Origin: Candidatus Hydrogenedentes bacterium CG07_land_8_20_14_0_80_42_17
GTDB lineage: Bacteria > UBA8481
Length of the DNA stretch: 10,683 nucleotides
Direction of reading: 5' to 3'
Assembly (NCBI GenBank): GCA_002780065.1
Contig: PEWQ01000131.1
Coordinates: forward strand, 1-10,683
The translations under genes and the position numbers were made by a program. A model generated the notes under the pieces. It did not search any database and was not told the origin of the DNA. It was given only the letters and a program-made list of their open reading frames with translations. Below are positions 4,897 through 10,555 of the stretch, in pieces (within the stretch, counting starts at the first letter, position 1; the number at the start of each line of letters is the position of its first letter).

Positions 4897-6650
4897 TGCT
4901 GATGAATATTTTCTACGGAACTCCGATATCGCCCGGCTTTGCAGAAGCACCGCCTCTTCTGGTGCAAGGAATGAAACTGAAGAGCGAAGAGCGGGCAATA
5001 TCGAGCAATGAAGTTGAGAAGGAATTCAAAAGATTTACAGATGCTATTGAAGCGACCAAAAACGAACTACTTGCAATCAGAGATAAGACAGCTGAAGAGA
5101 TAGGCGAAGATGAAGCGGAAATATTCGATGCTCATATTCTGGTTCTTGAAGATCCTCTGCTTCATGTAGAAGTTTCGCGCAAATTGGAATCGGAACAGAA
5201 GAACGTTGAAATAGTTCTTCAAATGGTCATCGATGATTTGGCAGAACGTTTTTCAAAGATAGAAGATGAGATGATGCGCGAACGAGCGACAGACATCGCC
5301 GATGTTGGGCAAATTCTTATTCGAAATTTGATGGGACGTCCTTCGGCGGCAATCAGAATTGATGAGCCATGCATTTTAGTTGCAACTGAAATTTCGCCGT
5401 CCACTGCCGCTAAACTTGATTCGGAGCTTGTATTGGGCTGTGTCACCGAGATAGGAAGCGTCACCTCGCATACCGCGATTATTGCTAGAGCTCTTGGAAT
5501 CCCAGCAGTCGTGGTTCCACCGGGCACTATAACAGAACTTCAAAACGCTAATACTATAATTGTTGACGGAATGGACGGCGCCGTAGTAGCTGATCCTGAT
5601 GAGAAAACTATAGAGGAATACGAAGAGAAAGAACAGAAGCGTCTTGAACGCGAAATTATGCTCCGCAGAAAAATCGGTTTGGATGCAGTAACGACGGATG
5701 GAGTTAAAATCGATATTTCGGCAAATATAGAAATGCCAATTGAGATTAAAATTGCAAAGGAAAACGGAGCGGAAGGAGTCGGACTTTACCGAACGGAATT
5801 TCTTTTTCTGAATCGCAAAGTACTACCAAGCGAGGAGGAGCAGTATCAGCATTACAGGCTCGCCGCGGAGGCATTTCCTCAAAATGATGTAATAATCCGA
5901 ACAATCGATGTTGGCGGCGATAAGTTTCTTTCCGGTTCAGGCATGCCTGAAGATGTCAATCCGTATCTTGGAGTCAGGGCTATACGATTTTCTCTTGTAA
6001 AACCTGACATATTTAATTCTCAAATCAGAGCTATAATTCGGGCATCCAGGCACGGAAAAGTTAAATTGCTTTTGCCGATGATTTCATGCATTGAAGAGAT
6101 AAGTTCAGCGATGGGATACATCGATGAATGCTGTAAGAAATTCGATCTGGATTCAGACTGCATTGAAGTTGGAATTATGATTGAAACTCCGGCCGCGGCG
6201 CTGAATACCAAGATTTTTTCCAATTACATGGATTTCTTTTCGATTGGAACCAACGACCTCATTCAATATACGATGGCGGCGGAACGCGGAAACAAGCAGT
6301 TGGATTATCTCCACCGACCCATGCAACCGACTATCATCAGACTTATTAAAGAAGTGACTGACAATGCAAAAGCAACAGGAATCGAACTTTCCGTTTGCGG
6401 CGAAATGGCCGGCGATTTAAGAATGATTCCGATTCTTGTCGGCTTGGGCATTACAAAGCTTTCCATGAACCCGAGGTCGATACCTGTTGCAAAGGAAATG
6501 ATTCGAAGAATTTCGTTTGAAGAGTCAAGTTCAGTTGCAAAAGAAATTGCTCAGTTGCTCTTTACAAAAGACGCAGTGGACAAAGTTGAAAAAACATTTG
6601 GCGAAAGAGTAAAGAGTCTCGAGATTAACGGCGCTCGTTTTCAAGATTGA
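4896..6650 (+). CDS. ptsI: PEP-protein phosphotransferase (PTS Enzyme I)
   Basis: This 584-residue protein has the full Enzyme I architecture and the usual length. An N-terminal HPr-binding domain (from GTPISPG) is followed by the phosphohistidine domain with [20 protein letters not shown] (active His192). The C-terminal PEP-binding barrel has [60 protein letters not shown] and [10 protein letters not shown] (Cys501). It autophosphorylates with PEP in the cytoplasm and charges HPr. It lacks the N-terminal GAF domain of PtsP/EI-Ntr, so it is a carbohydrate-type EI. The start is ATG 4896, sharing its A with the HPr TGA (TGATG). ATG 4902, six bases later and 10 nt from GAGG (4888-4891), is equally plausible and would give 582 residues. 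lepA begins 2 nt after the stop, so lepA is probably in the same transcript. Confidence 0.96.
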
Positions 6651-6652
6651 GT

Positions 6653-8467
6653 ATGCAGAGTTTCGATAAGGCATTCATACGTAATTTCTGCATAATAGCG
6701 CATATTGACCACGGCAAGTCGACATTAGCCGACAGACTTCTCGAAATTACAGGAACAATTGATAAGCGTGAGATGCAGGAGCAGGTGCTCGACGGAATGG
6801 ATCTTGAGCGCGAGCGCGGTATAACAATAAAAGCTCATCCGGTAAAGATGAGGTACCGTTCTAGCGCAGATTCGCCGGAGTTTCTTCTTCATCTCATTGA
6901 TACGCCCGGCCACGTTGATTTTAGATATGAAGTTTCGCGCGCGCTTGCGGCATGCGAAGGAGCTTTGCTTGTTGTTGACGCTTCGCAGGGCGTTGAAGCT
7001 CAAACACTTGCCAATATCGATCTTGCGTTTGAAGAAGACTTGACCTTAATTCCTGTGATTAACAAAATCGATCTGCCTGGAGCTGATATACCGCGCGTCA
7101 AGTCTCAGCTGAACGAACTTGGTTTTTTGGATGATGAAATTCTTCTTTGCTCCGCAAAAGAGGGCAAAGGTGTGAAAGAAATTCTCGATGCTTTGATCGA
7201 AAGGATTCCTCCTCCTATAGGTGATTCTGATGCTCCGTTTCGTGCTCTGATATTCGATTCACAATATGATTCTTATCTTGGAGCTGTTGCGTATGTGCGA
7301 GTCATTGACGGAACTGCCAAAAGAGGAGATATCGTAAGAATGGCATCGAGCGGAAAGCAAAATGAAGTGACTGAGGTCGGAGCTTTTGCTCCGCAGAGAG
7401 TGCCTATCGATGAACTGCAATCCGGATGCGTAGGCTACTTGACTGCATCTCTGAAACGAATCGATGGCATTCGAGTTGGTGATACTTTAACAGGAAATGT
7501 TGATGGAGTTGAGCCGCTGGAAGGTTATCGCGAACCGCTCTCAATGGTCTTTGCAGGCCTGTATCCGGTTGATGGAGATAGATACGATGATTTAAGAAAA
7601 TCGCTTGAGAAACTCCAGTTGAATGACTCGGCATTTAAATTCGAACCTGAGACTTCGGCGGCGCTAGGTTTTGGATTTAGGTGCGGATTTCTAGGATTGC
7701 TTCATCTTGAAATTGTTCAGGAGCGTTTGGAACGAGAATTCGGAATGGATCTTTTGACTACCGCACCTTCTGTTGAGTATAAGGCGCTAATGACAAATGG
7801 AGAGGTTGTGATTGTAGAAAACCCTTCGATGCTTCCGCCGATAGGTCAAATTCAAGAAATAGATGAACCTTACATTCGAGCTCGAATTTATACTCCTGAA
7901 GAATTTATCGGTCCAATAATGCAGTTGGGGCAGGATAAGCGCGGAACGTTTATCGACATGAAATTTATCTCCAAAGAAAAGGTCATTATCGAGTATGAAT
8001 TTCCGCTTGCAGAAGTTGTAATGGATTTTTTTGATAAGCTGAAATCCATATCGAAAGGATACGCATCGTTCGATTACGACTATATCGGTCATCGAGAAGG
8101 CGATCTCGTAAGACTCGACATCAAAGTGAATGAAGAGACAGTTGACGCTCTGACTATGATTGTTCACAGAGATAAGTCATATTTTGTGGGAAGAAAGCTA
8201 TGTGAGAAATTAAAGGAACTTATACCGAGACACCAATTCACTATTCCGGTTCAGGCCGCGATCGGCTCAAGAGTTATTGCGCGTGAGACGATACGCTCGC
8301 TTGCAAAAAATGTTATTGCAAAATGTTACGGCGGAGATGTGACGCGCAAACGCAAATTGCTGGAGAAGCAGAAAGAAGGCAAGAAGCGAATGAAGACAAT
8401 AGGCAGAGTCGATATACCTCAGAGCGCATTTATGGCTGTTCTGGAATTAGAGGGACACAATACCTAA
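6653..8467 (+). CDS. lepA: Elongation factor 4 (LepA GTPase)
   Basis: This 604-residue translational GTPase is full length for LepA/EF4, which acts on ribosomes during initiation/biogenesis and back-translocation under stress. G-domain motifs are AHIDHGKST (16-24), RGITIKAH (switch I), DTPGHVDF (83-90), NKID (137-140) and SAK (167-169). Domains II-V follow, with the family-specific C-terminal domain containing [20 protein letters not shown] and [18 protein letters not shown] replaces the usual RGITIKAQ, a small deviation. I chose ATG 6653, 2 nt after the ptsI stop, because the product then begins close to the family N-terminus. TTG 6647 is an in-frame alternative overlapping ptsI by 4 nt. No strong Shine-Dalgarno is seen, suggesting coupling to ptsI. 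The last codons (ELEGHNT-stop) lie inside a 27-bp palindrome (8444-8500), so the extreme tail may derive from a repeat insertion. Confidence 0.96.
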
Positions 8468-8500
8468 TTCACCGAATTAGGTATTGTGTCCCTCTAATTC
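8444..8500. repeat. Perfect 27-bp inverted repeat at lepA 3' end
   Basis: The left arm 8444-8470 and right arm 8474-8500 are exact reverse complements separated by ACC (8471-8473). Each arm starts with GAATTAG and ends with CTAATTC, so each arm also carries its own 7-bp terminal inverted repeat. As RNA the element would form a very stable 27-bp hairpin. It starts inside the lepA coding region and includes its stop codon (TAA 8465-8467). It could end or protect the operon transcript, although no strict U-tract follows (ATGGAATAAAAATTTATT). The GAATTAG...GTGTCCC composition resembles REP-like palindromes associated with RAYT/IS200-type transposases in environmental genomes; that link is from memory, and no transposase is present here. 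Confidence 0.9.
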
Positions 8501-8519
8501 ATGGAATAAAAATTTATTA

Positions 8520-8547
8520 TTGATTTCATCTTGAAAATAGTTATACT
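8520..8547 (+). promoter_or_regulatory. Putative sigma70 promoter for HU gene
   Basis: TTGATT (8520-8525) and TATACT (8542-8547) are separated by 16 nt and lie just upstream of the HU start at 8563. The predicted transcription start near 8554 would give a very short leader carrying GGTGA (8554-8558) as the Shine-Dalgarno. A nearer TTGAAA (8531-8536) is too close to the -10 to pair with it. The position downstream of the strong palindrome fits a new transcription unit. Confidence 0.4.
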
Positions 8548-8562
8548 TTTTTTGGTGATAAA

Positions 8563-8883
8563 ATGGTTAAAGAAGAATTGGTTGAAGAGATTGCAAAAAG
8601 TTTAAATCTGACGAAGTTCGAGGCTCATAATATTTTTGATGCCGCTATCGAGTCCATCAAGGAAATGCTCGAAGAAGGCAAAAAGATAGAAATTAGAGAG
8701 TTTGGAACTTTTTCGGCTGTTATGAGAAAACCTAAGTTAGGGAGAATCATTTCGACTGGCGGCACGGTGAAAATACCTGCGAGAATGGCTCCTAAGTTTT
8801 TGCCTGGGAAAATTCTTAAAGATCTTGTCAATCAAGGCATTTCTACAAAATCAGAAGTTATTAAGACTAGCTCTGAAAAGTAG
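8563..8883 (+). CDS. HU/IHF-family DNA-binding protein, atypical arm
   Basis: This 106-residue protein has the HU/IHF fold pattern. Helices 1-40 begin MVKEELVEEIAKSLNLTKFEA, followed by IEIREFGTFSAVMRKPKLGR, the DNA-binding beta-arm, and IPARMAPKFLPGKILKDLV at the C-terminal helix. The family bends DNA as dimers and organises the nucleoid or specialised complexes. The arm tip normally reads GRNPxTG, where the proline intercalates between base pairs. Here it reads GRIISTG (60-66), with Ile63 in the proline position. A tail of about 16 residues rich in Ser and Lys follows the usual end. These traits suggest a divergent HU paralogue, perhaps with altered bending. I cannot say whether it is HU or IHF-like, so no symbol is given. 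ATG 8563 follows GGTGA by 4 nt. The tRNA-Gly gene begins 15 nt after the stop and may be co-transcribed. Confidence 0.9.
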   Translation: MVKEELVEEIAKSLNLTKFEAHNIFDAAIESIKEMLEEGKKIEIREFGTFSAVMRKPKLGRIISTGGTVKIPARMAPKFLPGKILKDLVNQGISTKSEVIKTSSEK

Positions 8884-8898
8884 AATTTGTATTTTATT

Positions 8899-8972
8899 GC
8901 GGGAGTAGCTCAGTGGTAGAGCTCCAGCCTTCCAAGCTGGTTATGAGGGTTCGATTCCCTTCTCCCGCTCCA
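8899..8972 (+). tRNA. tRNA-Gly (anticodon UCC)
   Basis: The 74-nt sequence folds as a complete tRNA. The acceptor stem GCGGGAG (8899-8905) pairs perfectly with CTCCCGC (8962-8968). The D arm is GCTC-AGTGGTA-GAGC, and the anticodon arm is CCAGC-CTTCCAA-GCTGG with anticodon TCC, reading GGA glycine codons. The T arm is GAGGG-TTCGATT-CCCTT with one G-T pair. The discriminator base is T, as usual for bacterial tRNA-Gly, and CCA is encoded. A run of eight T (8975-8982) follows 2 nt after the CCA and may help end the transcript. No convincing promoter sits in the 15-nt gap after the HU gene, so processing from a shared transcript is likely. Confidence 0.97.
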
Positions 8973-9000
8973 TGTTTTTTTTCATTAGAATGGTATCCGT

Positions 9001-9030
9001 ATTCGAATTGGTTGCATTCGAATTGGTAGC
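9001..9030. repeat. 15-bp tandem repeat in purH leader
   Basis: Two adjacent 15-mers, ATTCGAATTGGTTGC (9001-9015) and ATTCGAATTGGTAGC (9016-9030), differ at one base. Each starts with the perfect 8-bp palindrome ATTCGAAT. This could be a pair of operator half-sites for a regulator of purH, or the edge of the REP-like element that follows immediately. No known regulator site is recognised. Confidence 0.6.
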
Positions 9031-9048
9031 CGTAGGCTTTAGCCTGCG
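9031..9048 (+). repeat. REP-like hairpin upstream of purH
   Basis: CGTAGGC (9031-9037) pairs with GCCTGCG (9042-9048) over 7 bp, with one T-G wobble and a TTTA loop. It sits between the tandem repeat and the purH Shine-Dalgarno (AAGGGTG, 9053-9059). The GTAGGCTTTAGCCTGC core looks like a REP/intergenic hairpin common in environmental genomes, by recollection only. In the mRNA it could affect translation initiation or transcript stability of purH. Confidence 0.5.
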
Positions 9049-9064
9049 AGGTAAGGGTGAGGGT

Positions 9065-10555
9065 ATGAAAAAATATGCTTTGATTTCTGTGACAGACAAA
9101 ACCGGTCTCGATCGTATCGCTGTGAGACTTTCACAACTTGGTTTTGGAATAATTTCGACCGGAGGCACTGCGAAGATATTGAAGAGCGCGGGGCTTGAAG
9201 TTATTGAAGCTGGTGAACTTTCCGGTTACGGAGAAATGCTTGGTGGAAGAGTAAAGACTCTTTCTCCTCCGATATTTGCCGGCATTCTTGCGCGGAGAGA
9301 TAATATCGAAGATATGCGTGAACTCGAAGAAAAGAAAATTCCATTAATTGATATCGTAATTTGTAATTTATACAAATTTGACAAAGACGCACCGAATAGG
9401 GAAGAGCTGATAGATATTGGTGGAGTATCATTGATTCGCGCGGCGGCGAAGAACAGCCGTTTTGTTTCTGCTCTGATAGATGCAGGCGATTACGATGGTT
9501 TTATTTCGAAGCTTGAATCAGCAGATGAGAAACTTTTGGACGTGGAACGCAAAAGACTTGCAGTCAAAGCGTGGGCTATGATTGAAGAATACGATAGCCG
9601 CATAGCATCGGCATTTTCCGATGATTCGGAAAAGAAGATCATCCGTCTTTCAAAGCATAGAAGTTTGAGATACGGCGAAAATCCTCACCAGTCTGCTGAT
9701 TGGTGGGTTTTGAATGGCGGTCACGGTTTGCATGAAGCTGTCACGAAAGAAGGAAAGGAACTTTCATATAACAATATTCTCGATCTTTCTGAGGCAATGG
9801 CTCTTGCATGCGATCTCGGAGAAAATGCAGTTGCAGTTATAAAACATCAAAACCCGTGCGGCGCGGCCAAGAAGAAGACTGTTTTAGAATCTCTGCAAAC
9901 AGCGATTAACTCGGACTCTTCTTCCGCTTATGGGGGTATCGTAGCAATCAACGGATTGTTCGACGAATCTTTAGCTTCAATTTTAAAAGGTTTTTTTATA
10001 GAAGTTATTGTTGCTAGAAAATTTTCTGAAGAGTCTTTGGAAATTTTGAAAAAGAGAAAACAGTTAAGAGTTTTAGAATGGCCGAATCCTGAATTTGAAA
10101 CCTTCGAGATGAAAAGCATTTCAGGTGGAGTTCTGACACAAACAAAAGATACCAAAACTGTTTATTTAGATGAAGCAGAGCTGAAAGTCGTATCAAAACG
10201 GGAGCCGACTGCCGAGGAACTTTCTGATCTTAAAATTGCCGATACGATAGCAAAACATGTTAAATCCAATGCGATAGTTTTGGTCAAAGACGGAGCAACG
10301 GTTGGAATCGGAGCAGGCCAGATGAATCGATCCGACTCAGTTAAGATTGCCGCTATGAAAGCCGGTGAGAGAATACAAGGTTCCGTAATGGCATCCGACG
10401 GTTTCTTCCCGTTTTCAGATGGAATTGAAAATGCGGCTGGCGTTACTGCAGTGATTCAGCCAGGCGGTTCAATCCGTGACAAAGAAGTAATATCAGCCGC
10501 CGATAGTTTAGGAATTGCATTGTGCATGACCGGAGTCAGACACTTTAAACACTGA
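9065..10555 (+). CDS. purH: Bifunctional AICAR transformylase/IMP cyclohydrolase
   Basis: This 496-residue cytoplasmic protein catalyses the last two steps of de novo IMP synthesis, formylating AICAR with 10-formyl-THF and then closing the ring. The N-terminal cyclohydrolase (MGS-like) domain has ISVTDKTGL, STGGTAK, GRVKTLSPP (Arg62, Lys64), and IDIGGVSLIRAAAKN (Asp117, Lys129). The transformylase domain has LRYGENPHQS, LSYNNILD, the catalytic KHQNPCGAA (Lys260, His261), KSNAIVLVKDG, GIGAGQMNR, ASDGFFPFSD, QPGGSIRD and terminal TGVRHFKH. The usual GRVKTLHPxxHGGIL reads GRVKTLSPPIFAGIL, so two common histidines are replaced while the Arg and Lys remain. ATG 9065 fits the family N-terminus and follows AAGGGTG. 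The frame is open back to the CCA of the tRNA (8972), but that part encodes the repeat-bearing leader and looks non-coding. Confidence 0.96.
   Translation: MKKYALISVTDKTGLDRIAVRLSQLGFGIISTGGTAKILKSAGLEVIEAGELSGYGEMLGGRVKTLSPPIFAGILARRDNIEDMRELEEKKIPLIDIVICNLYKFDKDAPNREELIDIGGVSLIRAAAKNSRFVSALIDAGDYDGFISKLESADEKLLDVERKRLAVKAWAMIEEYDSRIASAFSDDSEKKIIRLSKHRSLRYGENPHQSADWWVLNGGHGLHEAVTKEGKELSYNNILDLSEAMALACDLGENAVAVIKHQNPCGAAKKKTVLESLQTAINSDSSSAYGGIVAINGLFDESLASILKGFFIEVIVARKFSEESLEILKKRKQLRVLEWPNPEFETFEMKSISGGVLTQTKDTKTVYLDEAELKVVSKREPTAEELSDLKIADTIAKHVKSNAIVLVKDGATVGIGAGQMNRSDSVKIAAMKAGERIQGSVMASDGFFPFSDGIENAAGVTAVIQPGGSIRDKEVISAADSLGIALCMTGVRHFKH

Follow-up and report, generated by a model that had tools for sequence, protein, structure and literature searches.

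The lepA gene (EF4) of Candidatus Hydrogenedentes bacterium CG07_land_8_20_14_0_80_42_17 ends inside a perfect 57-nt palindrome, which is most probably a non-autonomous mobile element made of two inverted transposon terminal repeats of the TIRYT/RAYT type, REPIN-like in its layout and inserted at the 3' end of the gene. The window is the whole analysed stretch of 10,683 nucleotides (contig PEWQ01000131.1, forward strand), and the features under discussion are as follows.

6647..8467, + strand: lepA (EF4), an open reading frame of 606 aa (Pfam LepA_C, E 6e-49), with its last seven residues from the repeat
8444..8470, + strand: left arm, GAATTAGAGGGACACAATACCTAATTC, reading ELEGHNT-stop in the lepA frame; 13 copies in its own genome
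8452..8470, + strand: 19-nt family core, GGGACACAATACCTAATTC, common to several phyla
8471..8473, no strand: 3-nt loop, ACC; the second dimer of the genome (C169:5724-5780) has GCC
8474..8500, - strand: right arm, exact reverse complement of the left arm
8501..8509, + strand: putative pre-insertion end of lepA, ATG GAA TAA, based on the joined-flank translation and tail lengths in relatives
8563..8883, + strand: gene for an HU-like DNA-binding protein of 106 aa, 3' of lepA (Pfam Bac_DNA_binding, E 9.8e-26)

The two arms pair at 27 of 27 positions, as a preliminary description of two exact 27-nt inverted arms with a 3-nt loop at the end of lepA had stated. Both arms start with GAATTAG and finish with CTAATTC, so that this 7-mer occurs four times when both strands are counted, again as described. 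Translation of the lepA frame across the left arm (GAA TTA GAG GGA CAC AAT ACC TAA, with the stop TAA at 8465-8467) confirmed that ELEGHNT and the stop codon lie within the repeat. The LepA_C match covers residues 494-599 (profile positions 1-106 of 107), and only the seven arm-encoded residues extend beyond this domain. LepA was said to stop normally a few residues past the AFxAVL segment, and an alignment with the C-termini of relatives was advised; these tails were compared, and the first statement holds: the only same-order genome in the comparison (G001, LepA 68% identical) has a LepA ending in AFLAVLKRD and no palindrome, and more distant LepA proteins end in AVLKVE, AVLKVER, AVLKV, and similar tails. 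When the flanks are joined without the 57 nt, the codon CTG (8441-8443) continues in frame to give AFMAVL-ME-stop, which matches the usual tail length in relatives. A stop so near the joined flanks might be due to chance, and this sequence-based reading of an empty site is supporting evidence and not proof. The element would have been inserted directly after this CTG codon, with the left arm replacing the original end (probably Met-Glu-stop) by ELEGHNT-stop, and the insertion may have been tolerated because it is located past the folded LepA_C domain and supplies its own stop.

As RNA, the palindrome region folds at -49.3 kcal/mol (shuffled sequences, -16.9 ± 3.1; z = -10.6), and the DNA hairpin of the 57-mer has a folding energy of -27.8 (z = -15.5 against shuffles). 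Such a stable RNA hairpin over the stop codon, between lepA and the HU gene, could be read as an ordinary factor-independent terminator or mRNA 3' stabilizer that arose in situ in the lepA operon, and in the literature REPs lie mostly downstream of genes and have been proposed to act as RNA. However, there is no T-run after the stem, a terminator scan of positions 8200-9200 found none, and the same sequence recurs at ten other unrelated loci and across phyla, also as solo arms that fold weakly (only -2.2 kcal/mol). An origin in place as a terminator or stabilizer is quite unlikely, and the palindrome is not a canonical terminator; a secondary effect of the hairpin on mRNA stability is possible. 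In Rfam, the palindrome resembled nothing but models with long hairpins (those of microRNAs and a single sRNA), with scores far under the respective cut-offs, and a literature search with 10-11-nt strings of the repeat gave no relevant match among the papers listed.

With up to three mismatches allowed, the source genome (2.39 Mb in 207 contigs, 87% complete) contains 13 copies of the arm, distributed over 11 loci, whereas the reversed-pattern control gave none. This is far beyond chance, and the arm is therefore multi-copy, in keeping with the mobile repeat that had been proposed. Dimers are found at two of the 11 loci, namely the window and C169:5724-5780, the latter with arms that differ at three positions. 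The nine remaining loci have solo arms, and at eight of these the arm is succeeded by a different repeat, either TATATTTGAAATTGCAAATTGG or CAACTGAACCCGCTCATCC. A motif of the form GCAAATTGGAAAGTGCAAATTGAAAA was also observed 3' of most solo arms (G000 loci L007, L002, L008, L011, and L012, G000 being the source genome), suggesting that different repeats cluster as mosaics. The prevalence of solo arms with such followers would fit a single 27-nt arm as the mobile or repeated unit, a piece of a BIME-like mosaic, with the dimer arising by local inverted duplication and repair to perfection. Nevertheless, both dimers of the source genome have 3-nt spacings with near-identical loops, genome G105 alone has approximately 32 dimers, whose spacers are mostly related and 19-20 nt long, which indicates that dimers spread as units, and REP singlets are regarded in the literature as remnants of doublets. 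The single arm as the unit is accordingly an unlikely reading. It is very improbable that the palindrome was made by a misassembly joining repeat-bearing contigs: the assembly is fragmented and several contig ends lie close to arms, but the dimer recurs between other flanks at C169 and is also seen in 12 further genomes, and LepA is otherwise full length with joined flanks that stay in frame.

Named genomes of at least seven major bacterial groups carry the 19-nt core, in 23 stretches altogether, including Gammaproteobacteria, Alphaproteobacteria, Desulfobacterota, Omnitrophota, Elusimicrobia, Planctomycetota, and WOR-3. When 98 genomes were screened as relatives, the core turned up within one mismatch in the source genome and in just two more, so that the distribution is patchy. 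The viral contigs searched did not contain the core, nor did the 57-mer match plasmids or phages, and no mobile carrier is thus known.

The preferred reading, a mobile element derived from transposon termini, is linked to transposases by several observations. As the preliminary description had advised, genes for RAYT/Y1_Tnp proteins were sought in the source genome, which has four Y1_Tnp genes (RAYT-like Y1 transposases). One on contig C131 sits between GGGGTCAGGCTTGAACTTTTTTACTTTTT inverted repeats, another on C12 is flanked by inverted repeats that read GGTGCC(G/T)GTCTTATAGTTATATAGTTATT, and a third, on C2, has a sister of the window arm on its 5' side (GGGGACACATAACTTATTTC; AATCAGGGGACACATAACTTATTTC) and runs off the contig end. 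A complete unit is found in genome G041 (C46, L125), where the arm GGGACACCATACTTAATTC at position 470 (+) precedes a 224-aa Y1 (HUH) transposase (604-1278) and the inverted arm GGGACACCATACCTAATTC at 1272 (-) follows it. These arms differ by one base from the window core, and the GAATTAG of the right arm supplies the stop codon of the transposase itself. The C2 transposase of the source genome is 55% identical to that of G041, and both resemble the NCBI model for REP-associated tyrosine transposases, below its cut-off. Arms also adjoin Y1_Tnp matches on one side in G105 (C5) and G110 (C108). The source genome, at its 87% completeness, yielded no transposase flanked on both sides by exactly the window arm.

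Several other arrangements of repeats were observed in the source genome. Many contigs (C83, C87, and C149, at L148, L149, and L151, as well as C94, C103, C125, C26, C121, C167, and C176) terminate within GGGGACAC sister arms or shortly beyond them. On C83, C87, and C149, the right arm is joined to the 5' region of the transposase only (ATGGCAAGAAT), with C87 and C149 extending into a left-arm-like TTAATTC, and this structure is apparently a multi-copy miniature derivative from which the transposase has been deleted. Within a Y1_Tnp-like ORF at 1378-2019 of C205 (L040), the palindromic GTAGGGACAGGGCAC...CCCTGTCC is read in frame (GTGHRPVQ), which places GTAG-tagged repeats inside a transposase gene.

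The arms supply the ends of other genes as well. At five of the 11 source-genome loci, an ORF of more than 200 aa closes with a stop inside the arm (LepA, a PP2C phosphatase of 280 aa, a TPR protein of 421 aa, a methyltransferase of 215 aa, and a PorV-like protein of 459 aa), and we claim no statistical preference for gene ends, as five of 11 is not clearly above the residue left by selection against mid-gene insertion. The tail of the PP2C phosphatase is ELEGHNT, identical to the LepA tail in the same genome, and similar GHNT tails are present elsewhere. Dimers likewise adjoin or contain the ends of ACR_tran, 6PGD, GFO/IDH, HI0933-like, and aminotransferase genes in other genomes, and the domains of these genes are complete or nearly so. 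Two genomes, G103 (C26, L213) and G110 (C135, L216), have a dimer that is in frame and read through inside the gene of a chorismate-binding enzyme (RGTQYLIP..ELSIVSP), where in G103 it lies between the two domains. Elsewhere in the source genome, the terminal repeat of a different TIRYT family (GGGGTCAGGCTTGAAC; C131, L037, approximately 1000-1030) gives the adjoining gene its last residues and stop (RGQA-stop).

Arm symmetry is a property of the family. Across 30 dimers of G105, the arms mismatch at a mean of 0.53 of 25 positions, compared to 2.47 for shuffled partners (minimum 1.73 in 2000), and across 63 dimers from all genomes the means are 1.84 and 3.75, respectively. The lower number of mismatches within dimers indicates that the arms change together, as has been reported for REPINs. 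Perfect arm identity had been said to suggest recent insertion or active maintenance by gene conversion; recency does not follow, because symmetry is usual for this family and the identity of the window arms alone is no sign of youth. Insertion of dimers at the apex of existing hairpins was considered and set aside as a general rule, since extended flank symmetry was seen in a few G105 dimers and most others, including the window, have little flank symmetry.

We infer that the palindrome is mobile: a TIRYT (HUH, single-tyrosine) transposase would have moved it in trans via a single-stranded hairpin intermediate, and hairpin-templated repair would keep its arms identical.

Many arms have additional partial copies on their outer side. 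At least one extra copy of the outer 6-mer lies within 80 nt outside the arm in 50 of 184 arm instances from the loci analysed, which are not all independent since mirrored and tandem arms were counted separately. In total, 80 such copies occur outside the arms, compared to 4.9 expected from shuffles and six in the equal inner-side stretch. Each step of such a ladder is an arm prefix truncated at a variable point, as seen 5' of the C2 transposase (L038/L146, directly before the Y1_Tnp gene). Some G105 dimers have mirrored ladders, one on each arm; further ladders were observed at L056, L057, L147, L149, L151, L024, L178, L185, and L197. The window palindrome has no ladder. We propose that ladders may originate where the polymerase stalls and slips at the hairpin foot. 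In this tentative and rather doubtful reading, arms would grow at their outer edge: replication would repeatedly halt shortly after entering the hairpin, slip back, and copy the same bases again, and repair templated by the hairpin would then render the two arms symmetrical, in which case the palindromes would be recorders of replication stalling and a source of new protein tails. The prefix ladders may be the more novel part of these observations compared to the lepA palindrome.

Among known systems, the palindrome fits better with the terminal inverted repeats (TIRs) of TIRYT transposases than with classical, GTAG-tagged REPs. Repeats flanking TIRYTs were named TIRs, have the consensus GGGGWSAS, and often form dimers (Di Nocera et al., 2013, PMC3733652), and most TIRYTs belong to subclass 2.1, RAYT group 1 (PMC6006769). 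The left arm of C169 and the majority of arms from other genomes show the consensus as GGGGACAC, and the window arms fit it at seven of eight positions (AGGGACAC), the outer base being A. Like TIRs and TIRtrons, the arms are inverted near a Y1 transposase (on two sides in G041 and on one side in G110 and G105), are moderate in copy number, occur as dimers and singles, and overlap ORF ends, a likeness drawn from the published consensus and description; unlike them, one core is nearly unchanged over many phyla. REPINs (Bertels and Rainey, 2011, PMC3116915) likewise consist of two inverted short palindromic repeats in one hairpin, with compensatory arm changes, as a gene-less miniature unit. In contrast, the palindrome at lepA lacks the GTAG tag at the arm base, is low in copy number (two dimers in the source genome), and has a 3-nt loop. 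The GTAG tetranucleotide is absent in and beside both window arms, and the palindrome is therefore REPIN-like only, an inverted-doublet hairpin whose repeats are not GTAG REPs. The earlier suggestion that a REP-like mobile palindrome rewrote the LepA tail is supported by the 13 copies, the differing tails of relatives, and the Y1 transposases, with the refinement that the repeat is not a GTAG-tagged REP. Incorporation of palindromic repeats into proteins is also known from Rickettsia palindromic elements and intragenic REPs, and REPs are known to supply stop codons and to lie inside genes. Unlike these, the repeat in the window only terminates its protein; other members of its family are read through in G103 and G110, in the manner of a Rickettsia palindromic element.

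A transposase-linked palindrome thus appears to rewrite the C-termini of conserved genes, having given one seven-residue tail to both LepA and a PP2C phosphatase. The 19-nt core, nearly unchanged across several phyla, may offer a simple way to track TIRYT transposons and to examine how the identity of the arms is kept up.
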